Part shown: positions 4,121 to 47,845 of the stretch, in pieces
How the letters are laid out: every line of letters starts with the position of its first letter
Position numbering within the stretch: position 1 is the first letter of the stretch
Assembly: GCF_026151205.1 (NCBI RefSeq)
Contig: NC_087076.1
Location: 17,595,419 to 17,659,418, forward strand
Direction: 5' to 3'
DNA: 64,000 bases
Source: Bolinopsis microptera
Taxonomy: Eukaryota; Ctenophora; Tentaculata; Lobata; Bolinopsidae
The notes under the pieces: generated by a model
Seen by the model: the letters and a program-made list of their open reading frames with translations, nothing else
Told to the model about the DNA's origin: nothing
The model's database searches: none
Made by a program: the position numbers and the translations under genes

Positions 4121-4909
4121 TTAAGATGTTAGGAGGAACGGAAGGCCAAAAGGATTTATAGTGTTTATTCCCAAAGGTTTTAAAGTCTTGAGTTGTTGAA
4201 TATATTTATGTTCACGAACTTCTAAAGTTTTAGGACTAGAATTATCAATAATTGAAACATTAAAAATTTTGTTAAAATCCTCCCTTTGTTTAAAACCATG
4301 ATCCAACAAATGTAAGCCCAAACTATATTCATCACTTGTTTCATCTACCTTATCACCATTTAATAGTTTATAATATTTGACCCTATGTTCTCCAGTTCTA
4401 GCCCGTAGAGAGCGAGTAGTGCGACCGACGTAAGCCTTTCTACAGAAACTACATTGGAACAGATAAATGATGTTGTAACTCAGGCAGTTTCCAGGGGAAG
4501 CTTTAACCTTCTCGCCGTTAACTTTGAATTCATGGCTGCCTTTGACAAGTTCGCAGCATTTGCATCTTGGCATATGGCATTTGCTGGTTGGACCATGTTT
4601 AGCTCCTAAAGCAAGTTCTTTCAATTTGACGAGGCGAGATTTTAGGCTTGGCCCTGTTTTCTTGGTGTAACTGAATATTTTCTTCCTAGGCGTGGAAGCT
4701 GTTGAGGAGGTCTCTTGGGATGTTTCAACAGTGTCACTTTCACTGAAACTCCTTGTTCTTGAGAGGTGTTCTTCATACTTCTTAGTCACAGACACCAAAT
4801 CATCATCACTACCATAAGTAGATATGACCCTGATTGGTGGGTGTAAAGAAGTCTGGTCATCAGGAGATTGAACTTTGCGTAACAGTGATCTTGTTGAATT
4901 GAGAACCTT
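4121..4909 (-). pseudogene. PLE C-terminal region: Cys finger and GIY-YIG endonuclease
   Basis: This downstream coding piece of the Penelope-like element begins, in frame, right after the inserted retroposon (KVLNSTRSLL) and ends at the stop near 4121. It has a Ser/Thr-rich linker, a CxxxxCxCC finger and the GIY-YIG nuclease core with YVGRT and the arginine of LRARTGEHR. The endonuclease of this family nicks target DNA to prime reverse transcription. The piece itself has no stop or shift, so decay is not advanced. Confidence 0.8.
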
Positions 4910-5173
4910 GTTTGTTTGTTTGTTTGTTTATAGAACCCGTCCCCAATCTCGTATCGGAAAATGACTAAACTCAGGTCTGAGTGTGAATACGGGTGGTACC
5001 TGCAAGAGTGTTCATTAAGCATTTAGAGTTCTGTAAAACTGCAGTTACAATTGTGCTAGAGTATTTTTAGTATATACGATTGGTATCAGATATATATCCC
5101 TACATGCTTCCAAAATTTGTAAAGCCGTCTTACATACATATCACATTACACCGGAGCCTACACAGTGCGATCT

Positions 5174-5229
5174 CCTCCAGTCGATCTGCGCCGCGTATGT
5201 TTATATAAGCGCGCGGCGCAGACTGGAGG
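5174..5229. repeat. GC-rich inverted repeat (18-bp stem, 4-nt bulge)
   Basis: CCTCCAGTC-GATC-TGCGCCGCG is followed by an AT-rich loop and the reverse complement CGCGGCGCAGACTGGAGG. The stem stands out from its AT-rich surroundings, lies inside the inserted retroposon and could fold in RNA. Confidence 0.75.
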
Positions 5230-5568
5230 AAACCACACTCTGCAAGTTCGATCCAGTGCAATGCTACATGTACGTACTACGGCTTCATCTCCAACTTTCT
5301 GCACAATGTACTGGAATGTTTTGAAGGAAAAGAAAGAACAAAAAAAAGGTGATATATATAAATAAAATCAGCGATTTAATGTTAGCCTTAGGAGGGTAAC
5401 TTTAATTCCCTGGTTTTTAAAATCAGCTTTAAAAAAAAATAATAATAAAGTATGTAACGTCGATACCAAACCGATTATTGAGCGATAATAACTGAGTAGT
5501 TGATTCCTGGGTTGCGGAGTCATTTAGATGTTCCAGTTTTCGAATTTGGTTCTTGTTCAGTTCTTGAA

Positions 5569-7317
5569 CAAACTATTGCTCCTTTGTAATATGCACGTGT
5601 TAGTAAGTGTAGTAAAAAGTTAAAAATAATAAAGCTTTCTGAGAGGGTGAGAGGTTCTTTAATTAGAGCTAATGATTAAATGAGACCCACTAAAGGTACT
5701 AAATTAACCGGACTGCTAGCAAGGAATCGAGAGTCGAGTGGGAATAAAAATAAAAGCGGAATAAATTTTAAGATAATGAAACAGAAACTGAAAGCTAAAA
5801 TATATACCGTTCTAGAATGCCTCCGCAAACTATTGCTCCTTTGTAATATGCACGTGTTAGTAAGTGTAGTAAAAAGTTAAAAATAATAAAGCTTTCTGAG
5901 AGGGTGAGAGGTTCTTTAATTAGAGCTAATGATTAAATGAGACCCACTAAAGGTACTAAATTAACCGGACTGCTAGCAAGGAATCGAGAGTCGAGTGGGA
6001 ATAAAAATAAAAGCGGAATAAATTTTAAGATAATGAAACAGAAACTGAAAGCTAAAATATATACCGTTCTAGAATGCCTCCGCAAACTATTGCTCCTTTG
6101 TAATATGCTCGTGTTAGTAAGTGTAGTAAAAAGATAAAAATAATAAAGCTTTCTGAGAGGGTGAGAGGTTCTTTAATTAGAGCTAATGATTAAATGAGAC
6201 CCACTAAAGGTACTAAATTAACCGGACTGCTAGCAAGGAATCGAGAGTCGAGTGGGAATAAAAATAAAAGCGGAATAAATTTTAAGATAATGAAACAGAA
6301 ACTGAAAGCTAAAATATATACCGTTCTAGAATGCCTCCGCAAACTATTGCTCCTTTGTAATATGCACGTGTTAGTAATTGTAGTAAAAAGATAAAAATAA
6401 TAAAGCTTTCTGAGAGGGTGAGAGGTTCTTTAATTAGAGCTAATGATTAAATGAGACCCACTAAAGGTACTAAATTAACCGGACTGCTAGCAAGGAATCG
6501 AGAGTCGAGTGGGAATAAAAATAAAAGCGGAATAAATTTTAAGATAATGAAACAGAAACTGAAAGCTAAAATATATACCGTTCTAGAATGCCTCCGCAAA
6601 CTATTGCTCCTTTGTAATATGCACGTGTTAGTAAGTGTAGTAAAAAGATAAAAATAATAAAGCTTTCTGAGAGGGTGAGAGGTTCTTTAATTAGAGCTAA
6701 TGATTAAATGAGACCCACTAAAGGTACTAAATTAACCGGACTGCTAGCAAGGAATCGAGAGTCGAGTGGGAATAAAAATAAAAGCGGAATAAATTTTAAG
6801 ATAATGAAACAGAAACTGAAAGCTAAAATATATACCGTTCTAGAATGCCTCCGCAAACTATTGCTCCTTTGTAATATGCACGTGTTAGTAAGTGTAGTAA
6901 AAAGATAAAAATAATAAAGCTTTCTGAGAGGGTGAGAGGTTCTTTAATTAGAGCTAATGATTAAATGAGACCCACTAAAGGTACTAAATTAACCGGACTG
7001 CTAGCAAGGAATCGAGAGTCGAGTGGGAATAAAAATAAAAGCGGAATAAATTTTAAGATAATGAAACAGAAACTGAAAGCTAAAATATATACCGTTCTAG
7101 AATGCCTCCGCAAACTATTGCTCCTTTGTAATATGCACGTGTTAGTAAGTGTAGTAAAAAGATAAAAATAATAAAGCTTTCTGAGAGGGTGAGAGGTTCT
7201 TTAATTAGAGCTAATGATTAAATGAGACCCACTAAAGGTACTAAATTAACCGGACTGCTAGCAAGGAATCGAGAGTCGAGTGGGAATAAAAATAAAAGCG
7301 GAATAAATTTTAAGATA
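5569..7317. repeat. 257-bp tandem repeat array, about 6.8 copies
   Basis: The same block, including CAAACTATTGCTCC and GAGACCCACTAAAGG, recurs at an exact 257-bp step from 5569 onward. The last copy is cut off at the right edge of the insertion. Copies differ at only a few sites (for example AAAAGTTAAAA versus AAAAGATAAAA, and a CACGTG/CTCGTG change), so they were amplified recently or homogenised. Each copy contains the same 66-codon open frame, which is simply a result of copying the unit and is not called as a gene. Confidence 0.95.
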
Positions 7318-8136
7318 ATCAATTGAGAACCTTATTACTAATGACAATGTTCTCAACCATTTTCCTAGGGTAACACGCAGCAAGGAAGGCTTTTTTGAGG
7401 TTGTCGAGGTGTCCTTTGAGGCGTTCTTGGCAGTTGATGATCCTTCTGAGTCTAAGGCATTGAGAGTATACGATACCGGAATAGATATGGTTTGGGTGGG
7501 AGCTTTTAAAGTGTAGGTATGAACGAGAGTCCGTTTTCTTTATGAACAAATCCGTTTGGAGGGAGCCCAAGGAATCGAAAGTGAACATTATGTCAAGGAA
7601 AGATACGTATTTACCAGGATCTTCTATTTGGTACTCATCAATGGTTCGGCCATGGGGGAGGAGTGCTTTGTTGACATCTGCAATCCAAATTTTGAACCCA
7701 TCTGTAGTTCCCTCAAACAAACCTGCTCCGTCGTCAATGTAACGCCTGGCTGATACGATCTTCTTCATGAGCTCTGGGTTACTATAAACACATTTGTTCA
7801 TTAGGTAGTAGACTGCTATGTTTGCGATTTGGACACATAGTGATCCACCCGTAGGGATACCAATGAGCTGTATGAACCAATTTTGATCGAACACCCCAAC
7901 AGAGGATCGGAGGCTTATTTCACCAGTTGTGTGAGCCATTGGCAGAAGTCTTCAGACCAATCTTCTCTACATGATGACATAGCGGACCTTAAGGCCTCTA
8001 TGACGAGGGGTGGTGTTAAAGAGTCATAGAGGGCCTTAAAGTCGTAGGTAAACGATCTGAAGCCTTTCTTCTGTACTGGGGAATGTTCACTATCAACGAA
8101 TTCCAACCATTGAAGGGCATCGGTGTTATCAGTCAA

Positions 8137-32543: not shown

Positions 32544-34592
32544 GGGGGGGGGGGGTGTCATGTCCGTCTATGTCCGCCTATGTCCTGTCCTTTTTGGATT
32601 CTATGAGACAACGGACGTGTTTTTTGGGACATCGGCGGACACGGACGGACATTGGCGGACTCGGACGGACATTGGCGGACTCGGACGGACATTGGCGGAC
32701 TCGGACGGACATTGGCGGACCCGGACGGACATTGGCGGACCCGGACGGACATTGGCGGACTTGGATGGACATTGGTGGACATTGGTGGACATTGGTGGAC
32801 ATTAGCGGACATTGGTGGACATTAGCGGACAAACATTTTGAGGACTGAAGAGTACTGAAGAGTACTGAGGAGGATGGCTGAGAAGGATGGCTGAGGAGGA
32901 TGGCTGAGGAGGATGACTGAGGAGGATGACTGAGAGGGAGGAGAAGGATCAGGAAGACCCAGGAGGAGGAGGACCCAGAAGGAGGACCTAGGAGGAGGAG
33001 GAGGAGAACTGAGGAGGATGACTCAGGAGGAGGAGGACTGAGGAGTGAGGAGGACTGAGAAGGAGGAGGACTGAGGAGGATGGCTGAGGAGGATGACTGA
33101 GGAGGATGACTGAGAGGGAGGAGGAGGAGGAAGAGGAGGAAGAGGACTGAGGAGGAGGAGGACCCAGGAGGAGGAGGACCCAGGAGGAGGAGGACCCAGG
33201 AGGAGGACCCAGGAAAAGGCCCCAGGAGGAGGAGGAGGACTGGGGAGGAGGAGAACTGTTGAGGACTAATGAGGAGGACTGAGGACGAGGAGGAGGAGTA
33301 GGAGGAGGACTGAGGAGGGGAGGAGGAAGAGGACTGGGGAGGATCAGGAAGACCCAGGAGGACCCAGGAGGAGGAGGAGGAGGAGGACCCAGGAGGAGGA
33401 GGAGGACTGAGGAGGACTGAGGAGGAGGACTGACGATGACTGAGAAGGAGGAGGACTGAGGAGGATGGCTGACGAGGATGGCTTGGGAGGATGGCTGAGG
33501 AGGATGACTGAGGAGGATGACTGAGAGGGAGGAGGAGGAGGACTCAGGAGGAGGACTCAGAAGGAAGAGGAGGAGGACTCAGGAGGAGGACTCAGGAGGA
33601 GGACTTAGGAGAAATGAGAAGGAGGACTGAGGAGAACTGAGGAGGAGGAGGAGGAGGAGGAGGACTGAATAGGAGGAGGAGAAGGAGGGGGACTGGGAGA
33701 GGACTGGGGAGGAGGAGGACTGATGAGAAGGATTAGGAAGAGGACCCAGGAGGATGAGGACTGAGGACCGAGGAGGAAGAGGAGGAGGATGAAGAGGAGG
33801 AGGAGGACCCAGGAGGAGGAGGACTGAGGAGGAGGACTGAGGAAGACTGAGGAGGATGGCTGAGGAGGATGACTGAGAGGGAAGAGGAGGAGGACTCAGG
33901 AGGAGGAGGACTGAGGAGGACTGAGAAGGAGGAGGAGGAGGAGGAGGACTGAATAGGAGGAGGAGGAGGGGGACTGGGGGAGGACTGAGGTCTGAGGAGG
34001 AGGATGGAGGACTGAGGAGAAGGATGAGGAGGAGGACTGAGGAGGACTGAGGACTGAGGAGGAAGAGGAGGAGGATGAAGAGGAGGAGGAGGACCCAGGA
34101 GGAGGACTCAGGAGGAGGAGGACTGGGGAGGAGAAGGACTGTTGAGGACTGATGAGGAGGACTGAGGACGAGGAGGAGGAGTAGGAGGAGGACTGAGGAG
34201 GGGAGGAGGAAGAGGACTGAGGAAGATCAGGAAGACCCAGGGGGAGGAGGAGGAAGAGTAGGAGGAGGAAGCATCTAAATGTTATTTCCATTTTTGTCCG
34301 TTTTTGTCCATTTTTGTCCGTTTTTGTCCGCTCTATTTTTTGTTCGTTTTGAAAATATAGGGTACCGAACGGACAAAAAACATGATCCCCCCTATAACAG
34401 CATAAATTGAACATTTTATTTAGCAATTAAGGTGTCCATTAATGTCCGCCTATGTCCGCCTATGTCCGTCTATGTCCGCCTATGTCCGTCTATGTCCGCC
34501 TATGTCCGCCTATGTCCGCCTATGTCCGCCTATGTCCTGTCCTTTTTGGATTCTATGAGACAAGCGGACATAGACGGACGTGACACCCCCCC
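32544..34592. mobile_element. G-run TIR transposon, copy 2
   Basis: The left terminus is 12 G followed by TGTCATGTCCGTCTATGTCC; the right terminus is its inverse, ending GACGTGACACCCCCCC. The flanking 6-bp duplication is ATCATA (32538-32543 and 34593-34598). CCTTTTTGGATTCTATGAGA occurs near both ends in direct orientation. Next to the left end lies an array of GGACATTGGCGGACTCGGAC-like 20-bp units; next to the right end lies an array of TATGTCCGCC decamers. The middle is a GGA-rich minisatellite (about 32840-34270). It encodes no protein; the long open frames are repeat artefacts. Confidence 0.85.
32840..34270. repeat. GGA-rich polypurine minisatellite of copy 2
   Basis: Irregular units such as GGAGGACTGAGGAGGATGGC and GGAGGACCCAGGAGGA fill 1.4 kb, with nearly all purines on the plus strand. 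GGA repeats are known to form G-quadruplex-type structures. The antisense Ser/Pro-rich open frames have no other sign of coding. Confidence 0.9.
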
Positions 34593-34939
34593 ATCATAGA
34601 CTAGTCTATGGAGTATAAGTAGCTAAGGATTCATTGGATCTGTGTGAAATGACGCATTTGTGTTAAGTCTGCTCAGACACAGCCAAATGATCGGAAACGT
34701 GATTGAGGGTTAAATGAAGAGGGACCAAGCCCAAGAGATCAAGATTCTTCTCAGAATAATTTGTTGTCCTTATCGGATTTGGTACATCAGACTACGATCC
34801 ATAGCTTCTTCCACTGTTTTTTCATCTTGGTAGCAAGATGAAAAAACTTTCAACACTACTATATAACAAATAATTTGAGGACCCGAAACCGCTGAGCAGT
34901 CTCTATCTTGAACTTGCTTAACCCCATCTCACTTTGAGA

Positions 34940-36913
34940 ATGGTGGAATCCGGTCAAACCGATCAACAGCCAGTGGGGCTGGGTACCTCAAATTATGTCT
35001 TTCAGGAAGATAACAAAGGAAATGACAATGAAAGGCATGATTTGGGGTCCCAGATTGAAGACAATCAGACATCAGCCCCTGCTGCACCTGAATCCTTAGA
35101 AGCTGTTGCAGAGAACAGAACCCCTGAGGACTGTGAAGCAGACGTAAGCAGTTTTGTTTCATTTTGTACCAATGCTTCAACACCTTTTGATACAATTCTT
35201 TTGGCCCATTCAAAAAACTTACGATCTGAAGTAGACAATATCAAACTGAACTTTTGTAGTACTTTGAAAGTAGAAGTAGACCAATTTGCAACGTTGACCC
35301 CTACAATCATCAAAAACTGTTCAACACTTAACAAATATACCCTGGCAGACGGCCTTCTGTCCCTACTTTCTCTGTCAGAGAAAGTATGTGCAGTAATAGG
35401 GGGTAAAAGGTTGTCTATCGGTGACAACCCCATCGATGAAGCAGCAGTTGCTTCTTCCGTAGCTGCTGACTCCATTTCTGGAAATGCTACCCTCCATGAA
35501 TCCCTTCAGGCTATTCAAAATAGCATTCTTAAGAGAGATAAGGTGCACAATGACACTCTCAAATCAATCAGTGGCCAGCTTAACACCCTGACTCTCTCCA
35601 TTGATCAGTACATGAAACCATCAGATATGTCAACTCCAGATGTACCACGTAACACTGCATTTCCTTCTTTCCAAATAGGCCTTCCTTATATCAATATCGA
35701 AAAACCAGATCCTAAGATTGACTTACATACAGTGCAAAATCCTATAGACACCTCCATTGGTCACATTGAGTCATTCACACCAGATTTTGTTGCCCAAGAA
35801 CTTTCGGATAAACTCACTGAATACCTTGACACATTCAGTGAACAGTTTGATGCAAACTCAGAAAGAGGACATGGTGTCATAAGCTTTGGGGATGCATACA
35901 ACTATCCAGGAGCCAAAGCTGCAAAACCTATATCCAAAAACATCCCTGAACCCCTAACTGAACTTGTTTCGCTCATCCAGGCCAAATTCCCTGAAAGTGT
36001 CATTAATCAGTGTTTAGTGAATCGCTACCTTGACGAGAAATCAGAGCTGCCGAAGCATTCGGACAACGAAGCCTCACTAATGTTTGATAGTAACATCTTC
36101 ACTATATCACTAGGCAGTACCTGTGATGTTCTATTCAGTAAAATCGAAGGATCTGAAACCAAAACTGTATCAGCTACTGGAAAAAGTCTATATGTTATGA
36201 GTAAGCAATCTCAGTCTGTTTGGCAACATCAAATAGATCAATCTCCAACCACACGTGAGAAAAGATATAGTGTTACATTTCGTTATGTTACATCTAACAA
36301 CGAAAATGCAACAATAATAATAGGAGACTCCAACACCAGATTCTTGAAATTCGGTAGTGGGAAAGGACGTTTCGGTCATAAAATGCCAGGGAAAAGGGTA
36401 GAATGTTTTACTATTGATATGATTAACCCAAGTTTGTGTGAAGGTTACAGAAATATTTTTATTCATTGTGGAGTAAATGATATTAAGAAACGGAGCTCAA
36501 ATATCGAGCAGTGTGCCAGTGATCTCAAGGTAAAACTTGATGATATATGTCGTAAATGTCCATACTCCAAGGTTACCGTTTCGCCAGTACTACCCACTAA
36601 GTTTGGCTGGTTGAACGAGAAAGCATTATATTTTAACAAACTTATATTTCAATATGTTGACATGAACCCAAGGGTGGGAACTCTAGATTTTAATGAATTT
36701 GTTGGTGAAGATGGTAAACCAGCTGACCAGTTCGGTCGTTTCAAGGATAAAAGTGATGCCATCCATCTTGGGTCTACTGGTATCTTTAAGTTGTCTAGGC
36801 TAATAGTGGATAAAATACAGCGCAATCCAATAGATGGGCGCCAATTTAGTGATATTGCTAGGAGTAAAGTTGGGATGTTCAATTCACGTGTTCAAAGAGC
36901 TCCGAAACCATGA
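34940..36913 (+). CDS. LINE ORF1: AlkB-like dioxygenase and SGNH esterase domains
   Basis: 657 residues from the ATG at 34940. Residues 1-300 are Ser/Asp/Glu-rich without a recognised fold, though 200-230 could be helical. About 300-450 look like an AlkB-family 2OG-Fe(II) dioxygenase. NRYLDEKSELPKHSDNEA gives the iron-binding H373-x-D375, and VWQHQI gives the distal H430. KRYSVTFRYV ends the fold, with R442 and R448 where the family's oxoglutarate-binding arginines sit. About 458-625 is an SGNH/GDSL hydrolase: GDSN with S464, IHCGVND with N513 and DAIHLG with D606 and H609. Esterase-like domains are known in ORF1 of CR1-like LINEs. An AlkB domain in front of one is not something I know to be standard. 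Stop overlaps the ORF2 start. Function of either domain in retrotransposition is unknown. Confidence 0.8.
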   Translation: MVESGQTDQQPVGLGTSNYVFQEDNKGNDNERHDLGSQIEDNQTSAPAAPESLEAVAENRTPEDCEADVSSFVSFCTNASTPFDTILLAHSKNLRSEVDNIKLNFCSTLKVEVDQFATLTPTIIKNCSTLNKYTLADGLLSLLSLSEKVCAVIGGKRLSIGDNPIDEAAVASSVAADSISGNATLHESLQAIQNSILKRDKVHNDTLKSISGQLNTLTLSIDQYMKPSDMSTPDVPRNTAFPSFQIGLPYINIEKPDPKIDLHTVQNPIDTSIGHIESFTPDFVAQELSDKLTEYLDTFSEQFDANSERGHGVISFGDAYNYPGAKAAKPISKNIPEPLTELVSLIQAKFPESVINQCLVNRYLDEKSELPKHSDNEASLMFDSNIFTISLGSTCDVLFSKIEGSETKTVSATGKSLYVMSKQSQSVWQHQIDQSPTTREKRYSVTFRYVTSNNENATIIIGDSNTRFLKFGSGKGRFGHKMPGKRVECFTIDMINPSLCEGYRNIFIHCGVNDIKKRSSNIEQCASDLKVKLDDICRKCPYSKVTVSPVLPTKFGWLNEKALYFNKLIFQYVDMNPRVGTLDFNEFVGEDGKPADQFGRFKDKSDAIHLGSTGIFKLSRLIVDKIQRNPIDGRQFSDIARSKVGMFNSRVQRAPKP

Positions 36914-39900
36914 ATAGAACAAATATATGTGAGAACTGTATCTGCTGCAGCAAACCTATTCGTGCTGGACACCCATTTATAAATTGCAATAAGTGTGATT
37001 GCATCATTCACAAGAGATGTAAAACACAGGAAAACATTGCCACTTTTAGAGAAAAAACTTACTGCTCAAATTGTATTCAAAATCATGATATAATTCGTTA
37101 TAATCCATTCTATCAAGCACCTCACTTTTCAAACAACGAACTACTTGACAATGAACCTCACGACTATATAGACTCAATAGGTACAATCTCAAAAACTCTT
37201 GAGAACTGTCAATCATATTCTACTAAAAACTTCAACAACCTCATAAAGCAGATTCCTCAAACAACATCAAAGCGCATATTCTCACACTACTTTCGAAATA
37301 TTGATGGAAATGGTACTAACTTTGACAAATTGGCCTTAGAATTAGCCTGCATAGACCACAAATTTTCTGTGATAGGTTTAGCAGAAACAAACATTGATCC
37401 CTGTAATAGTCAGCTGTACCAAATTAAAGACTATACTTCATGTTACCAAAAACGCTTCGTTTCTAATAAGACACAACAGGTAAAAAGTAAAGGAAGTGGA
37501 GTTTCTCTCTACATTCACAACTCCTTTAACTTTAGTGTGATTGAAAAGTTATCTGTTTGTACAGAGCAATTTGAGTCCCTATTCGTAACAATAAGTAATG
37601 CTCCAGAACCAGTAACAGTTGGAGTTGTATACCGCTCACCAAGCAATCCACTTGCTAACTTCAATGCACAGTATAAAGAAGTTCTTACTGCACTGAAAGG
37701 ACATAAAGCATACATATTAGGGGACTTCAATGTTAACATAACCAATTTATCAGGCCCAGATGAAGATATATTCGAAGAAGTTATTTATAGTCACGGGTTT
37801 ACGCCCACAATATCCATTCCCACACACCAAATGCCCCACTGCTCAAAAACGTGCATTGATAACATACACACTAATGACATTCACTCATCAACTATATCTG
37901 GAGTAATTCAGGATAGTGCTTCACATCACCAGCCCATTTTCTGCCTTCAAGTAATGAATTCTGATACTAGTTCGGAACAGAATAAATCACCTGAAAAAAC
38001 AACCATTTATTATAACTATAGTAATGCAAACCTTGATAAGCTCTGTGAAGAAATTGAAAACGACATAGATACATTTTACCACAGATGTGACTCTTTTGAA
38101 TCCTTCATGGATCTGTTTCAAGAAAAGATAGATATATCTTGCAAATTGGCTTCACCAAAAACCACCAAACGAAATAATATAACAAATCCATGGATCACAA
38201 ACGGCCTTATCAACTCTGTGGAGAAAAAAGCCAGACTTTATTTTGAATGGAAAAAAACAAAAACATTGTTAATTCCAGATGGGGATCTGGAAAGACATAA
38301 TGTTTACAAGGACTACTCAAAATATCTTAAAATTGCCATAAAAACTGCCAAAACCAGGTATTATGCTGAAAAGTTTGAGAAAAATAGCCATAACTCCAAA
38401 AAAACCTGGCAAAAAATTAACGAGCTTCGTGGCAAAAAGAAGAATCAGCTAAAAGATGACTTCATTATAGATGGGACTAGAGTAATTTGTAGGCGGACAA
38501 TTGCAAACAAATTCAATAGTTACTTTACATCTTTAGCTAGTAATTTAAGGCCACAGGGGGGGGGTCGAGGCTTTAAAAAATGCAAAAAAACATTATGCTT
38601 TGAATCAATATATATTTTTGTGGTGGATACTTTGCCACCACTCATTTTTCTGTAGCTATTTTACTTTTTTTTATAAATGAGGTTAACTAATTCTCATTTA
38701 ACCTCATTTTTTTGATAAATCGATAATGGAGGGCAGAAATATTGATGCCATTACAACTGAAAACTACGATAAGCTTTGTTTTTATTGTTTTTGTGTTATT
38801 TCAGCAGTTAAACTTTGAAAAATATACAAATAAAGGCAAAATACTCAAAAATCACATAACATAAAAAACAGTTTTTTGTCTCTCCTGAAAACCTCGAATT
38901 TTTGACTTCAAAATCTATCTTCTCCTAGAGTTTTTATCCATTTCACCTCAAATTTGGAACTTATGTTCCTGACATAAATTTAAAAGTTTGTTATGTAACG
39001 ATTGTTGTAATTTTGCTCCTAACTCTTATTATGAGGTTAACCATTTTAAATTTTGTAACCCGCACTCATGGTTAACCTCATATCTCAGCTTTGGAGCAAG
39101 ATATCATAAATCGTTACATAACAAAAACTCAAAATACCTTGAAGAACATTGTTGCCAAGTTACAAGGTTCTAAGTCATAAACTGAAAAAGAAGATAGATT
39201 TTGAACACGATTTCATTTAAAGTTTTCATTTACAATAGAATTACAGGTAAACCTCAAAATTCAACGCGCGATATCTTCAAATAGGAAACTTTGTTTTCGG
39301 TAAGGACAAAAGCATTTGAAAATTTAGATCGAGCTCTACAACATATCTCAAAATCTCAAAATCGACCTCGGACCCCCCCCTGTGGCCTTAAATGAGAAGG
39401 TTTTGTCCGAGAACCAACTGTCTATCCAACCAATGCAATCATTTGTTGAGTTTATGTCGAAATCAGTCAACAGTTCAATACATCTAGAAGAAACTCATCC
39501 TGAGGAGATTCTTGAAATAATTCAAGAATTCGTTAACGGAAAAGCCAGTGATATACCAATAGCAGTTATCAAGAAACCGGCTCATCTCTTATCCAACATA
39601 TTAGCAAATTTGTATAATACATGTATTCAAAAAGGCACGTTCCCATCCATATTCAAAATAGGCAAAGTAACTCCTATCCATAAAAAAGATAATAAAGAAA
39701 ATATTGAAAATTATAGACCTGTGTCAATATTGCCAATCTTTGGTAAAATATTTGAAAAAATAATATACAAACGGCTTTATACCTTTTTCACTGCTAATGA
39801 CATTCTCAGTAATGAACAATTTGGTTTTCGAAAAGGCCACTCAACCTCACATGCACTCCACAAATCAGTTCATTCAATCACAACATCAACATCCAGTGGT

Positions 39901-41256
39901 AATCATGTTCTAGGAATCTTTATTGACCTAAGCAAAGCTTTTGATACTCTTGACCATGGCATTCTCCTGAGGAAACTGGAAAATTATGGGGTTAGAGGTC
40001 TAGCTCTAGGACTTCTAAAAAGCTATTTATCCGATAGATCACAGTATGTTTCATTTCTCAACACTACATCAGAGACTATGAATGTAAAATATGGAGTTCC
40101 CCAAGGTTCCATACTAGGCCCTCTACTTTTCTTATTATATATGAACGACATAATAAACTGTTACAAAGGCGATGAATGCAAATTTGTGCTCTATGCTGAT
40201 GACACAAATATATTTATCACTGGACCGTCCAAAGAAGCAACATACTTGAAGGCCAATAAAGTTCTTGATTTCGTATGCAAATTCATGAGAAGTAATCTCT
40301 TACATATAAATATGTCTAAATGCTGCTACATACATTTTCTACCTGCATACGAATCTGATGAAACCTGCGCCAGGGTTAGGCCGTATGCCAATGAACATGA
40401 CAAATCACAAGGAATATTTATAAATGGACACAAAATTGTCAAGGTTAGCAACACCAAATTTCTTGGTGTAGTAATTGATGAAAAACTTAGCTGGGGCCCA
40501 CATATAGAATATCTAAGAAAAAAAATTAGATCCACTACAGGAGCACTTAACAGGATTAAACATTCAGTTCCAGGGGAACACTACCAAAAAATATACTCTG
40601 CATTATTGGAATCACATCTTGCTTACGGAATAAGTGTTTGGGGCTCAGCTCTCAAAGACCAACCAAACGATAAGCTGTTCATAACTCAGAAACGTTGTAT
40701 AAGAATCCTTTTTGGAGACCTAAATGCATACCTCGACAAACATGCCACTTGTGCACGAGCCAGACCTTATACAAAACAGAGGTTAGGAGCTGCTTTTTTC
40801 GAAAAAGAGCACACCAAGCCCATTTTTAATCGACTAAAATTGCTTACTGTTCAAAACTTGTACAAATACCACTGTATATCTGAGATATTTCGAATTATGA
40901 AATTTCGCACTCCATACTCGTTGTATTGTACTATAGACTCATCAAAACGTGATACAAGCAATGTCATAATCCTCCCAAGAAAAACCAACACTTTTCTTTA
41001 TATAGCCTCCAAATTGTGGAATAGCATACATAAACGGATTCTAAATGAGAATGGGGAAATCCTCACTACTTCTGTAGCTTTGGTTAAATTACGCTGTAAA
41101 AGTATCATCCTGGGATCTCAATCCATCAACAATAATAACACCTGGACTTACCACAACTTTCACATCGCCCCTCACTCAATCACAGACCAAACCATTTCAT
41201 CACTCACTCACCAAATTGCCGATCCAATATCTATTGAAGTGGCGAAAATTTTCTAG
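36910..41256 (+). pseudogene. LINE ORF2: PHD finger, AP endonuclease, reverse transcriptase (interrupted)
   Basis: ORF2 makes the endonuclease and RT needed for target-primed reverse transcription. It begins at the ATG overlapping ORF1. Residues 10-55 are a PHD-type finger with Cys/His spaced C10-C13-C26-C29-H34-C37-C52-C55. The endonuclease shows GLAETNID, VGVVYRSPSN, YILGDFNVNI and SASHHQPIFC, where the usual SDH is SHH. At 38549-39387 an 839-bp element interrupts the frame and adds a stop. After it, RT motifs follow: YRPVSILPIFGKIFEK, NEQFGFRKGHST, IDLSKAFDTLDH, GVPQGSILGPLLF and catalytic YADD (about 40190). The C-terminal thumb region ends at the stop at 41256. Apart from the insertion I see no stop or shift, so the copy was recently intact. 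Clade assignment to CR1-like rests on the PHD and esterase combination. Confidence 0.85.
38549..39387. mobile_element. TTAA-specific TIR element inside LINE ORF2
   Basis: Target duplication TTAA at 38545-38548 and 39388-39391. Terminal inverted repeats GGCCACAGGGGGGGGGTCGA and, on the other strand, GGCCACAGGGGGGGTCCGAGG with small gaps. TTAA duplication is typical of piggyBac and Kolobok families. Inside are inverted copies of GAGGTTAAC (about 38680-38705 and 39030-39080). No transposase is present, so it is non-autonomous. Its ends contain long G/C runs like the unrelated-looking G-run transposons nearby. Confidence 0.85.
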
Positions 41257-41391
41257 ACAAATGATATTTCGATATTATTGCTGCAGCAGATACAAATACC
41301 AACATTATTATATTCCCAAACGTTTGAACCTTTAAATTAACTAGGAAAGTCAATCCTCAACTTGACTTTTACTGTTTTAAACAGATATGAT

Positions 41392-44300
41392 GGGGGGGGT
41401 GTCATGTCCGTCTATGTCCGCCTATGTCCTGTCCTTTTTGGATTCTATGAGACAACGGACGTGTTTTTTGGGACATTGGCGGACACGGACGGACATTGGC
41501 GGACTCGGACGGACATTGGCGGACTCGGACGGACATTGGCGGACTCGGACGGACATTGGCGGACCCGGACGGACATTGGCGGACTTGGATGGACATTGGT
41601 GGACATTAGCGGACATTGGTGGACATTAGCGGACAAAAATTTTGAGGACTGAAGAGTACTGAAGAGTACTGAAGAGTACTGAAGAGTACTGAAGAGTACT
41701 GAGGAGGATGGCTGAGAAGGATGGCTGAGGAGGATGGCTGAGGAGGATGACTGAGGAGGATGACTGAGGAGGATGACTGAGAGGGAGGAGAAGGATCAGG
41801 AAGACCCAGGAGGAGGAGGAGGAGGAGGACCCAGAAGGAGGACCTAGGAGGAGGAGGAGGAGAACTGAGGAGGATGACTCAGGAGGAGGAGGACTCAGGA
41901 GGAGGACTGAGGAGGACTGAGAAGGAGGAGGACTGAGGAGGATGGCTGAGGAGGATGGCTGAGGAGGATGACTGAGAGGGAGGAGGAGGAGGAAGAAGAG
42001 GAAGAGGACTGAGGAGGAGGAGGAGACGGACTGAGGAGGAGAAGGAGGACCCAGGAGGAGGAGGACCCAGGAGGAGGAGCACCCAGGAGGAGGACCCAGG
42101 AAAAGGCCCCAGGAGGAGGAGGAGGACTGGGGAGGAGGAGAACTGTTGAGGACTGATGAGGAGGACTGAGGACGAGGAGGAAGAGTAGGAGGACTGAGGA
42201 GGGGAGGAGGAAGAGGACTGGGGAGGATCAGGAAGACCCAGGAGGACCCAGGAGGAGGAGGAGGAGGAGGACCCAGGAGGAGGAGGAGGACTGAGGAGGA
42301 CTGAGGAGAAGGACTGACGATGACTGAGAAGGAGGAGGACTGAGGAGTACTGAGGAGGATGACTGAGGAGGATGGCTGGTGAGGATGGCTGAGGAGGATG
42401 ACTGAGGAGGATGACTGAGAGGGAAGAGGAGGAGGACTCAGGAGGAGGACTCAGAAGGAAGAGGAGGAGGACTCAGGAGGAGGACTCAGGAGGAGGACTC
42501 AGGAGGAGGACTTAGGAGAAATGAGAAGGAGGACTGAGGAGAACTGAGGAGGAGGAGGAGGAGGACTGAATAGGAGGAGGAGAAGGAGGGGGACTGGGAG
42601 AGGACTGGGGAGGAGGACTGATGAGAAGGATGAGGAGGAGGACCCAGGAGGAGGAGGACTGAGGACCGAGGAGGAAGAGGAGGAGGATGAAGAGGAGGAG
42701 GAGGACCCAGGAGGAGGAGGACTGAGGACGAGGACTGAGGAGGACTGAGGAGGATGGCTGAGGAGGATGACTGAGAGGGAAGAGGAGGAGGAGGAGGACT
42801 GAGAAGGAGGAGTAGGAGGAGGACTGAATAGGAGGAGGAGGGGGACTGACGATGACTGAGAAGGAGGAGGACTGAGGAGTACTGAGGAGGATGGCTGAGG
42901 AGGATGGCTGGGGAGGATGGCTGAGGAGGATGACTGAGGAGGATGACTGAGAGGGAGGAGGAGGAAGACTCAGGAGGAGGACTCAGAAGGAAGAGGAGGA
43001 GGACTCAGGAGGAGGACTCAGGAGGGGAGGAGGAAGAGGACTGAGGAAGATTAGGAAGACCCAGGGGGAGGAGGAGGAAGAGTAGGAGGAGGAAGCATCT
43101 AAATGTTATTTCCATTTTTGTCCGTTTTTGTTCATTTTTGTCCGCTCTATTTTTTGTCCGTTTTGAAAATATATGGTACCGAACGGACAAAAAACATGAT
43201 CCCCCCTATAACAGCAAAAATTGAACATTTTATTTAGCAATTTAGGTGTCCATTTATGTCCGCCTATGTCCGCCTATGTCCGTCTATGTCCGCCTATGTC
43301 CGCCTATGTCCGTCTATGTCCGTCTATGTCCGCCTATGTCCGCCTATGTCCTGTCCTTTTTGGATTCTATGAGACAACGGACGTGTTTTTTGGGACATTG
43401 GCGGACACGGACGGACATTGGCGGACTCGGACGGACATTGGCGGACTCGGACGGACATTGGCGGACTCGGACGGACATTGGCGGACCCGGACGGACATTG
43501 GCGGACTTGGATGGACATTGGTGGACATTAGCGGACATTGGTGGACATTAGCGGACAAAAATTTTGAGGACTGAAGAGTACTGAAGAGTACTGAAGAGTA
43601 CTGAAGAGTACTGAAGAGTACTGAGGAGGATGGCTGAGAAGGATGGCTGAGGAGGATGGCTGAGGAGGATGACTGAGGAGGATGACTGAGGAGGATGACT
43701 GAGAGGGAGGAGAAGGATCAGGAAGACCCAGGAGGAGGAGGAGGAGGAGGACCCAGAAGGAGGACCTAGGAGGAGGAGGAGGAGAACTGAGGAGGATGAC
43801 TCAGGAGGAGGAGGACTCAGGAGGAGGACTGAGGAGGACTGAGAAGGAGGAGGACTGAGGAGGATGGCTGAGGAGGATGGCTGAGGAGGATGACTGAGAG
43901 GGAGGAGGAGGAGGAAGAAGAGGAAGAGGACTGAGGAGGAGGAGGAGACGGACTGAGGAGGAGAAGGAGGACCCAGGAGGAGGAGGACCCAGGAGGAGGA
44001 GCACCCAGGAGGAGGACCCAGGAAAAGGCCCCAGGAGGAGGAGGAGGACTGGGGAGGAGGAGAACTGTTGAGGACTGATGAGGAGGACTGAGGACGAGGA
44101 GGAAGAGTAGGAGGACTGAGGAGGGGAGGAGGAAGAGGACTGGGGAGGATCAGGAAGACCCAGGAGGACCCAGGAGGAGGAGGAGGAGGAGGACCCAGGA
44201 GGAGGAGGAGGACTGAGGAGGACTGAGGAGAAGGACTGACGATGACTGAGAAGGAGGAGGACTGAGGAGTACTGAGGAGGATGACTGAGGAGGATGGCTG

Positions 44301-47300
44301 GTGAGGATGGCTGAGGAGGATGACTGAGGAGGATGACTGAGAGGGAAGAGGAGGAGGACTCAGGAGGAGGACTCAGAAGGAAGAGGAGGAGGACTCAGGA
44401 GGAGGACTCAGGAGGAGGACTCAGGAGGAGGACTTAGGAGAAATGAGAAGGAGGACTGAGGAGAACTGAGGAGGAGGAGGAGGAGGACTGAATAGGAGGA
44501 GGAGAAGGAGGGGGACTGGGAGAGGACTGGGGAGGAGGACTGATGAGAAGGATGAGGAGGAGGACCCAGGAGGAGGAGGACTGAGGACCGAGGAGGAAGA
44601 GGAGGAGGATGAAGAGGAGGAGGAGGACCCAGGAGGAGGAGGACTGAGGACGAGGACTGAGGAGGACTGAGGAGGATGGCTGAGGAGGATGACTGAGAGG
44701 GAAGAGGAGGAGGAGGAGGACTGAGAAGGAGGAGTAGGAGGAGGACTGAATAGGAGGAGGAGGGGGACTGACGATGACTGAGAAGGAGGAGGACTGAGGA
44801 GTACTGAGGAGGATGGCTGAGGAGGATGGCTGGGGAGGATGGCTGAGGAGGATGACTGAGGAGGATGACTGAGAGGGAGGAGGAGGAAGACTCAGGAGGA
44901 GGACTCAGAAGGAAGAGGAGCAGGACTCAGGAGGAGGACTCAGGAGGAGGACTTAGGAGAAATGAGAAGGAGGACTGAGGAGAACTGAGGAGGAGGAGGA
45001 GGAGGACTGAATAGGAGGAGGAGATGGAGGGGGACTGGGAGAGGACTGGGGAGGAGGAGGACTGATGAGAAGGATGAGGAGGAGGACCCAGGAGGAGGAG
45101 GACTGAGGATTGAGGAGGAAGAGGAGGAGGATGAAGAGGAGGAGGAGGACCCAGGAGGAGGAGGACTGAGGAGGACTGAGGAGGATGGCTGAGGAGGATG
45201 ACTGAGAGGGAAGAGGAGGAGGAGGAGGAGGAGGACTGAGTAGGATGACTGAATAGGAGGAGGAGGAGGGGGACTGGGGGAGGACTGAGGAGGAGGATGG
45301 AGGACTGAAGAGAAGGATGAGGAGGAGGACTGAGGACTGAGGAGGAGGATGAAGAGGAGGAGGAGGACCCAGGAGGAGGACCCAGGAGGAGGAGGAGGAC
45401 CCAGGAGGACCCAGGAGGAGGACTCAGGAGGAGGAGGAGGACTGGGGAGGAGGAGGACTGTTGAGGACTGATGAGGAGGACTGAGGACGAGGAGGAGGAG
45501 TAGGAGGAGGACTGAGGAGGGGAGGAGGAAGAGGACTGAGGAAGATTAGGAAGACCCAGGGGGAGGAGGAGGAAGAGTAGGAGGAGGAAGCATCTAAATG
45601 TTATTTCCATTTTTGTCCGTTTTTGTCCATTTTTGTCCGTTTTTGTCCGCTCTATTTTTTGTCCGTTTTGAAAATATAGGGTACCGAACGGACAAAAAAC
45701 ATGATCCCCCCTATAACAGCAAAAATTGAACATTTTATTTAGCAATTTAGGTGTCCATTTATGTAGGAGGAGGACTGAGGAGGGGAGGAGGAAGAGGACT
45801 GGGGAGGATCAGGAAGACCCAGGAGGAGGAGGACGGAGGAGGACCGAGGAGGAGGAGGAGGACTGAGGAGACTGAGGAGAAGGACTGACGATGACTGAGA
45901 AGGAGGAGGACTGAGGAGTACTGAGGAGGATGACTGAGGAGGATGGCTGGGGAGGATGGCTGAGGAGGATGACTGAGGAGGATGACTGAGAGGGAGGAGG
46001 AGGAGGACTCAGGAGGAGGACTCAGAAGGAAGAGGAGGAGGACTCAGGAGGAGGACTCAGGAGGAGGACTTAGGAGAAATGAGAAGGAGAACTGAGGAGG
46101 ATGAGGAGGAGGACTGAATAGGAGGAGGAAAAGGAGGGGGACTGGGAGAGGACTGGGGAGGAGGACTGATGAGAAGGATGAGGAGGAGGACCCAGGAGGA
46201 GGAGGACTGAGGATCGAGGAGGAAGAGGAGGAGGATGAAGAGGAGGAGGAGGACTTAGGAGAAATGAGAAGGAGAACTGAGGAGGATGAGGAGGAGGACT
46301 GAATAGGAGGAGGAAAAGGAGGGGGACTGGGAGAGGACTGGGGAGGAGGACTGATGAGAAGGATGAGGAGGAGGACCCAGGAGGAGGAGGACTGAGGACC
46401 GAGGAGGAAGAGGAGGAGGATGAAGAGGAGGAGGAGGACCCAGGAGGAGGAGGACTGAGGACGAGGACTGAGGAGGACTGTAGAGGATGGCTGAGGAGGA
46501 TGACTGAGAGGGAAGAGGAGGAGGAGGAGGAGGAGGACTGAGGAGGACTGAGAAGGAGGAGTAGGAGGAGGAGGACTGAATAGGAGGAGGAGGAGGACTG
46601 AATAGGAGGAGGAGGGGGACTGACGATGACTGAGAAGGAGGAGGACTGAGGAGTACTGAGGAGGATGGCTGAGGAGGATGGCTGGGGAGGATGGCTGAGG
46701 AGGATGACTGAGGAGGATGACTGAGAGGGAGGAGGAGGAAGACTCAGGAGGAGGACTCAGAAGGAAGAGGAGGAGGACTCAGGAGGAGGACTCAGGAGGA
46801 GGACTTAGGAGAAATGAGAAGGAGATCTGAGGAGAACTGAGGAGGAGGAGGAGGAGGACTGAATAGGAGGAGGAGAAGGAGGGGGACTGGGAGAGGACTG
46901 GGGAGGAGGAGGACTGATGAGAAGGATGAGGAGGAGGACCCAGGAGGAGGAGGACTGAGGACCGAGGAGGAAGAGGAGGAGGAGGACCCAGGAGGAGGAG
47001 GACTGAGGAGGAGGAGGACTGAGGAGGAGGAGGACTGAGGAGGAGGACTGAGGAGGAGGACTGAGGAGGATGGCTGAGGAGGATGACTGAGAGGGAAGAG
47101 GAGGAGGAGGAGGAGGAGGACTGAGGAGGACTGAGAAGGAGGAGTAGGAGGACTGAATAGGAGGAGGAGGAGGGGGACTGGGGGAGGACTGAGGAGGAGG
47201 ATGGAGGACTGAAGAGAAGGATGAGGAGGAGGACTGAGGACTGAGGAGGAGGAGGAGGAGGATGAAGAGGAGGAGGAGGACCCAGGAGGAGGACCCAGGA

Positions 47301-47845
47301 GGAGGAGGAAGACCCAGGAGGACCCAGGAGGAGGACTCAGGAGGAGGAGGAGGACTGGGGAGGAGGAGGACTGTTGAGGACTGATGAGGAGGACTGAGGA
47401 CGAGGAGGAGGAGTAGGAGGAGGACTGAGGAGGGGAGGAGGAAGAGGACTGAGGAAGATTAGGAAGACCCAGGGGGAGGAGGAGGAAGAGTAGGAGGAGG
47501 AAGCATCTAAATGTTATTTCCATTTTTGTCCGTTTTTGTTCATTTTTGTCCGCTCTATTTTTTGTCCGTTTTGAAAATATATGGTACCGAACGGACAAAA
47601 AACATGATCCCCCCTATAACAGCAAAAATTGAACATTTTATTTAGCAATTTAGGTGTCCATTTATGTCCGCCTATGTCCGCCTATGTCCGTCTATGTCCG
47701 CCTATGTCCGCCTATGTCCGTCTATGTCCGCCTATGTCCGCCTATGTCCGTCTATGTCCGCCTATGTCCGCCTATGTCCGCCTATGTCCTGTCCTTTTTG
47801 GATTCTATGAGACAAGCGGACATAGACGGACGTGACACCCCCCCC
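41392..47845. mobile_element. G-run TIR transposon, copy 3 (internally amplified)
   Basis: The left end is 8 G then TGTCATGTCCGTCTATGTCC; the right end is GACGTGACACCCCCCCC. The target duplication is TATGAT (41386-41391 and 47846-47851). At 6.45 kb it is three times longer than copy 2 because the inside is repeated. 41400-43020 and 43322-44942 are near-identical at a 1,922-bp step. Their junction (about 43250-43400) fuses a right-end decamer array to a left-end array through the shared CCTTTTTGGATTCTATGAGA block, without terminal G or C runs. A third, partial unit begins at 45764, where the right-end sequence stops abruptly in TTATGTAGGAGG. No coding capacity. Confidence 0.85.
41640..47510. 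repeat. GGA-rich polypurine minisatellite of copy 3
   Basis: Three blocks (about 41640-43100, 43565-45595 and 45764-47510) are built of GGAGGA, GACTGAGGA, GACCCAGGA and GATGGCTGAGGA units, each followed by a T/C-rich segment containing ATTTTTGTCCGTTTTTGTCC. Purine content on the plus strand is extreme throughout. Minus-strand Ser/Pro/Leu open frames of up to about 270 codons result from the repeat and are not called as genes. Confidence 0.9.

Follow-up and report, generated by a model that had tools for sequence, protein, structure and literature searches.

AlkB-type dioxygenase and SGNH esterase domains paired in LINE ORF1 proteins and in a Helitron of the ctenophore Bolinopsis microptera

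The analysed stretch, hereafter the window, comprises 64,000 nucleotides of the Bolinopsis microptera genome (contig NC_087076.1, positions 17,595,419 to 17,659,418, forward strand) and contains a long interspersed nuclear element (LINE) whose first open reading frame (ORF1) encodes an AlkB-family dioxygenase beside an SGNH esterase. This pair of domains is spread over many LINE families of the genome, and at least one Helitron carries both. The element displays the architecture of LINEs with an apurinic/apyrimidinic-type (APE) endonuclease: a separate ORF1 is followed directly by ORF2 with endonuclease and reverse transcriptase (RT), as expected from a preliminary description of this DNA that had called it a LINE. 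The features are as follows, in window coordinates.

34843..41392, forward strand: LINE copy, its ends set from an alignment with the copy L009 (99.6 and 99.9%) and from five compared copies
34940..36913, forward strand: ORF1, an open reading frame of 657 amino acids (aa)
34940..35734, forward strand: N-terminal part of ORF1, aa 1-265, with no Pfam match at an E-value of 1
35735..36295, forward strand: AlkB-type 2-oxoglutarate (2OG)-Fe(II) dioxygenase domain, aa 266-452
36056..36064, forward strand: H373-S-D375, first two iron ligands, invariant in 23/23 domains
36227..36229, forward strand: H430, third iron ligand, invariant in 23/23
36263..36283, forward strand: R442-x-S-x-T-x-R448, 2OG-binding and active-site arginines, invariant in 23/23
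36305..36844, forward strand: SGNH hydrolase/esterase domain, aa 456-635, with S464, G511/N513, D606 and H609 (invariant in 21/21; PDB profile and fold matches)
36910..38548, forward strand: first part of ORF2 up to the insertion, with APE endonuclease and, by eye, zinc-finger-like cysteines
38549..39387, no strand assigned: 839-bp insertion with inverted ends (GGCCACAGGGGG...), splitting ORF2
39388..41256, forward strand: second part of ORF2, reverse transcriptase (PF00078, 3.5e-40)

The Pfam domain PF13532 (2OG-FeII_Oxy_2) matches ORF1 residues 318-448 with an E-value of 3.9e-16 (60.3 bits, cut-off 31.2), well beyond chance, and PF03171 matches at 9.9e-7. A phmmer search of ORF1 against the PDB returned 16 sequences up to an E-value of 1, all of them ALKBH3 or ALKBH2 (5.3e-4 to 0.11), and the first half of a profile built from 21 relatives of the same genome found ALKBH2/3/8 at 2.5e-15 to 5.7e-13. 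The predicted structure of the domain is matched best by AlkB folds, headed by ALKBH3/ALKBH2; ALKBH5 is ranked after ALKBH3, ALKBH2, and ALKBH6, and the replicase of Grapevine leafroll-associated virus 3 is also among the matches. The NCBIfam AlkB equivalog scored 17.3 bits against a threshold of 267, which argues that the domain is no orthologue of bacterial AlkB. The preliminary description had proposed such a dioxygenase followed by an SGNH esterase, and H373, D375, H430, and the two arginines within RYSVTFR all lie in the 657-aa frame at the places it gave. The iron site is apparently complete, judging by these residues, and clustering of H373, D375, and H430 is predicted indirectly, through the residue alignment to ALKBH3 and the fold match. 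On the two points that the preliminary description had named as able to refute it, prediction of a double-stranded beta-helix and retention of these residues in related copies, the domain assignment held up as far as these comparisons reach. R442 and R448 presumably serve in 2OG binding and at the active site, roles assigned by homology.

The second half of the 21-relative profile found SGNH enzymes, including 4c1b at 3.2e-4, the esterase of the zebrafish LINE ZfL2-1 ORF1 according to the available text of PMC3905857, and the fold comparison agrees. The Pfam family GDSL_2 remains sub-threshold on the window ORF1 (E-value of 0.053, 14.5 bits, cut-off 32.9), so the SGNH assignment is based on the relatives' profile and the fold comparison. 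The motifs GDSN (462-465), GVND (511-514), and DAIH (606-609) were found where they had been placed, and they supply the serine, the Gly/Asn oxyanion residues, and the Asp-x-x-His that characterize esterase-type ORF1 proteins.

The residues that the preliminary description had singled out as critical are retained in relatives: HxD, H, and R(x5)R are invariant in 19/19, 21/21, and 23/23 aligned domains, in sets that overlap and contain a few close pairs. The largest set includes the Helitron and reaches down to 24% identity to the window's domain. The SGNH residues D-S-N, G-x-N, and D-x-x-H are likewise invariant in 21/21 relatives. Ratios of nonsynonymous to synonymous substitution (dN/dS) for AlkB were 0.07 to 0.22 in 13 of 19 pairs, which are not independent of one another, and those for SGNH were 0.08 to 0.27 where computable. 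The AlkB site is under purifying selection and stays with the esterase. In several pairs the AlkB dS lies far above the SGNH dS (e.g., 1.17 versus 0.30 for L014/L016), a sign of mosaic descent of the ORF1 domains. A chance HxD/H motif is excluded by the Pfam and profile E-values, the fold matches, and the invariant residues.

The search of the species' own genome covered 264.65 Mb in 232 contigs. With the AlkB part of ORF1 as query, 150 of 761 candidates were scored and all 150 matched; with PF13532, 150 of 587 candidates were scored, giving at least 151 matches, and all 150 listed were above the cut-off. The two lists of 150, pooled and merged within 700 bases, comprise at least 297 distinct AlkB places, many of which carry long open frames. 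Three of these places, L049 to L051, look like host ALKBH2/3 genes, by motif. Every one of the 34 fetched loci (L001 to L034, with some copies covered twice and L002 being the window copy) matched both AlkB and SGNH within open frames, the ORF1 frame of L003 being split. Six further LINE ORF1 types, L036 to L041, have AlkB and then SGNH, the pair in L040 not being adjacent. Five of the six gave Pfam GDSL E-values below 0.01, each under the curated cut-off, and L041 was recognized by motifs only. RT lies downstream of ORF1 in L036, L037, L039, and L041, and the fetched parts of L038 and L040 show an endonuclease-like ORF by eye. The genome-wide matches exclude a one-off recent capture in the window copy alone. 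Candidates for an esterase without AlkB in this genome (L029, L030, L031, and L034, from the SGNH list only) all proved to have AlkB; AlkB-free esterase LINEs may still exist there. In L034:825-5099, a single open frame runs through ORF1, with its AlkB-SGNH part, into the beginning of the RT; a small indel relative to L027 may have fused them.

The window copy has its 5′ end at about 34843, and a G-run/TGTCC repeat replaces its 3′ end at about 41388-41392. ORF1 starts about 97 bases 3′ of the 5′ end common to the compared copies, and the ORF2 ATG overlaps the ORF1 stop (ATGA). The ORF2 endonuclease matches PF14529 at 1.3e-5 (25.5 bits, slightly below the cut-off of 27.4). The element is probably a LINE of the CR1/L2/RTEX kind, a clade name that we infer. 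Copies L009 to L012 have both ORFs open and match one another at 99.67 to 99.83% and the window copy's two parts at 99.46 to 99.95%; these near-identical open copies suggest that the family was recently active.

Comparison of L014 with L009 in 150-base windows showed identities of 0.47 to 0.70 in ORF1 and 0.96 to 1.00 in ORF2, switching at the ORF1/ORF2 border, which shows that ORF1 with AlkB and SGNH is exchanged as a unit. L014 is thus a chimeric LINE, with an ORF1 of a divergent family before an ORF2 96 to 100% identical to that of the window family. Reticulate ORF1 evolution in Jockey-superfamily LINEs, described in the accessible part of PMC4120745, is in line with such a swap. A 19-row RT tree of the genome's own sequences placed AlkB-SGNH ORF1s in at least two deep lineages, with supports of 99/99 for L036/L037/L039 and 83/78 for the window's group; the window, L009, and L014 were filtered out for length or as duplicates, and L013 of the same family substitutes for them. 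In the AlkB tree, a single clade of 25 of the 27 transposon AlkBs stands apart from the three host genes together with L040 and L053 (99/97). Support for all 27 against the host genes is 84/62, with long branches, which leaves room for a second, independent capture, possibly represented by L040/L053. Both have a LINE type of ORF1, and their AlkB groups nearer to host ALKBH2/3-like genes, with weak support. Of 40 pattern matches in viral contigs, none was confirmed as a relative.

A single 3,388-codon open frame at C10:16874382-16884545, assembled by coordinates from the overlapping L035:4383-9800 and L042:1-5046, encodes SGNH (6.4e-6, below the curated cut-off), AlkB (3.6e-21), DUF6570 (6e-14), Helitron_like_N (Rep; 6.8e-23), and PIF1 helicase (4.5e-22). 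SGNH and AlkB precede DUF6570, Rep, and PIF1, and the joint presence of Rep and the helicase identifies the frame as that of a Helitron. The domain order, SGNH-AlkB, is opposite to that in the LINEs. An AlkB near-identical to the Helitron's occurs in a 2,459-codon frame at a second place, L056. In the AlkB tree, the Helitron AlkB and its L056 counterpart fall beside LINEs L029 to L031 (weak support, 80/75). A clade made up of the window's 17 nearest LINE rows and excluding the Helitron was not rejected (p-AU of 0.283), so transfer between LINEs and Helitrons may have run in either direction.

LINE ORF1 proteins with esterase and PHD domains are already known, as are SGNH domains in other transposons and AlkB domains in a long terminal repeat (LTR) element and in plant RNA viruses. 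Esterase-type (type IV) LINEs, such as ZfL2-1 and also RTEX, likewise have two ORFs with APE endonuclease and RT and an SGNH domain in ORF1; the window ORF1 differs in having AlkB directly before the esterase. The preliminary description had noted esterases in ORF1 of CR1-like LINEs. The available text of PMC3905857 assigns ZfL2-1 to the CR1 clade and reports esterase-type ORF1s from chordates, cnidarians, and sponges, within elements of the CR1, RTEX, and Penelope kinds. The part of PMC4120745 available confines this type to two vertebrate CR1/L2 groups and records PHD fingers in CR1/L2 ORF1; AlkB and oxygenase have no mention in the available portions of either paper. The orchid Ty3/Gypsy element Gypsy_Pa_2799 is likewise a retrotransposon with an AlkB whose cofactor residues are conserved, but it is an LTR element, its AlkB lies in a separate ORF2 and is kin to plant m6A erasers, and no esterase is named in the accessible text (PMC9289625), whereas the window AlkB is ALKBH2/3-like and fused in a LINE ORF1. 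Plant RNA viruses of the Alphaflexi-, Betaflexi-, and Closteroviridae (same source and portion) are also mobile RNA replicons with their own AlkB, which sits in replicase polyproteins rather than in an integrating LINE. Human ALKBH3/ALKBH2, the best fold and sequence matches, share HxDxE...H...R(x5)R but are stand-alone host enzymes, 19 to 25% identical in structural alignments. A platyfish Helitron and bdelloid LTR elements show SGNH/GDSL captured by unrelated transposons (PMC4021074 and PMC5408684), with no AlkB named in what was covered of either paper and no oxygenase in the available text of PMC5408684; in the present genome the two domains are combined, in LINEs and in one Helitron frame. 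AlkB mentions in the available part of a krill paper (PMC11294593) refer to the host gene alkB2 and no transposon. The mainly open literature covered, Repbase reports aside, yielded no description of AlkB in a LINE ORF1 or a Helitron, and we claim no priority.

We tentatively propose, a little short of an even chance, that the ORF1 AlkB clears methyl groups, likeliest N1-methyladenosine (m1A) and 3-methylcytidine (m3C), from the LINE's own RNA and perhaps its complementary DNA (cDNA). These two modifications stop reverse transcriptases, ALKBH2/3-like enzymes remove both, and ALKBH3 prefers single strands. The ORF1 protein would coat the element RNA, as LINE ORF1 proteins do, and its AlkB domain would strip methyl groups off the coated RNA, while the esterase may bring the protein into contact with membranes or lipids, a role suggested earlier for zebrafish ZfL2-1. 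Acting like ALKBH2/3, the domain would most likely take m1A and m3C off the single-stranded RNA that serves as template, perhaps also off the cDNA, and with these blocks cleared the RT could read through. Such clearing would serve repair of the RT template rather than immunity. No other part of LINEs is as poorly understood as the ORF1 protein, and an apparently complete demethylase site in ORF1, selected in many families, makes the effect of methylation on retrotransposition directly testable. It would also extend the contest over RNA/DNA methylation from plant RNA viruses and the orchid LTR element to animal LINEs and Helitrons.

Several points weigh against template clearing. Both activity and substrate are predictions. 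By fold, ALKBH2/3, ALKBH6, ALKBH5, ALKBH8, and AlkB all lie near, as do numerous viral AlkBs, so the substrate cannot be read from the fold. Four of the 19 AlkB dN/dS pairs are saturated, the window/L009 pair is without AlkB change, and L028/L033 gives 0.96, based on very few changes. SGNH Pfam scores fall below the curated cut-off in the window protein, L033, and L035 to L041 (L041 being matchless), and the loci were chosen by AlkB or SGNH match, which under-samples AlkB-free LINEs. The window copy, its ORF2 broken by the insertion, cannot move by itself. The host genome has MT-A70 methyltransferase matches, which leave room for erasure of N6-methyladenosine (m6A); a supposed lack of m6A writers was dropped as a case against it for this reason. 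An m6A eraser hiding or releasing element mRNA from host m6A readers, as proposed for orchid Gypsy and plant ALKBH9B, is the chief rival but nevertheless rather unlikely, since the closest folds and sequences are ALKBH3/2 and not ALKBH5, and an mRNA mark would be less central to a Helitron, which has both domains.

LINEs copy RNA and Helitrons pass through single-stranded DNA, and the Helitron with both domains favours repair of a single-stranded intermediate over a purely mRNA-marking role. A broader version, rather doubtful at present, is that AlkB plus SGNH forms a mobile "intermediate-care" cassette in two unrelated transposon classes of ctenophores, LINEs and Helitrons, in which an ALKBH3-like enzyme would strip base-pair-blocking methyl groups from the element's own single-stranded RNA or DNA and let it be copied, a form of template repair encoded by the transposon, and that LINEs exchange it with ORF1. 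The enzyme could instead target host factors or nucleic acids (target-site chromatin DNA, tRNA, or defence RNAs). PHD matches in 10 of 19 related ORF1s point to chromatin, and ALKBH2 structures among the fold matches are, by title, bound to double-stranded DNA, but the window ORF1 has no PHD match and the data indicate no host target, making this improbable. Slightly less probable still is a domain that retains fold and iron site mainly to bind RNA or hold the ORF1 protein together, with little or no catalysis: invariance of the iron ligands and both arginines in the most divergent relatives exceeds what binding would need, although the esterase of the zebrafish LINE has weak activity and is proposed, in the available text of PMC3905857, to be a membrane-targeting domain. 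The broken ORF2 could be read as marking a chance or decayed capture, a useless pseudo-domain, an explanation with almost no probability left given the E-values, invariant residues, low dN/dS, at least 297 places, and many long open frames. Template clearing of m1A and m3C remains our preferred reading.

Other features of the window surround or interrupt the LINE. The 839-bp insertion has inverted ends in G/C runs and a TTAA duplication (window 38545-39391), with TTAA at 38545-38548 and 39388-39391; by this footprint it would be a piggyBac-like non-autonomous element. Repeat arrays of two types, GAGGAGGA and TGTCCGCC, border the LINE at 32627-34590 and 41388-47790, and inverted G/C-run junctions lie on both sides of it. 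Penelope-like retroelement pieces were recognized by eye at 4121-7939 (reverse strand), with a GIY-YIG-like ORF at 4121-4798 and an RT-like ORF at 7319-7939. Elsewhere in the genome, a ligand-binding fragment of a glutamate receptor (L048) has the receptor ML032222a of the ctenophore Mnemiopsis as its best PDB match (1.3e-33), ahead of 4zdm from Pleurobrachia (2.1e-22) and of NMDA receptors (1e-13), which supports a ctenophore host. With whole receptors, kainate receptors come first by E-value: GluK2 chains head the matches of the full L048 protein, ML032222a ranking 11th, and for L043 it is absent from the 60 matches listed. Several ionotropic glutamate receptor genes (C12:11782391-11809362, C8:6755619, and C9:7533364) each lie in one open frame, 765 to 989 codons long, and so appear largely free of introns.
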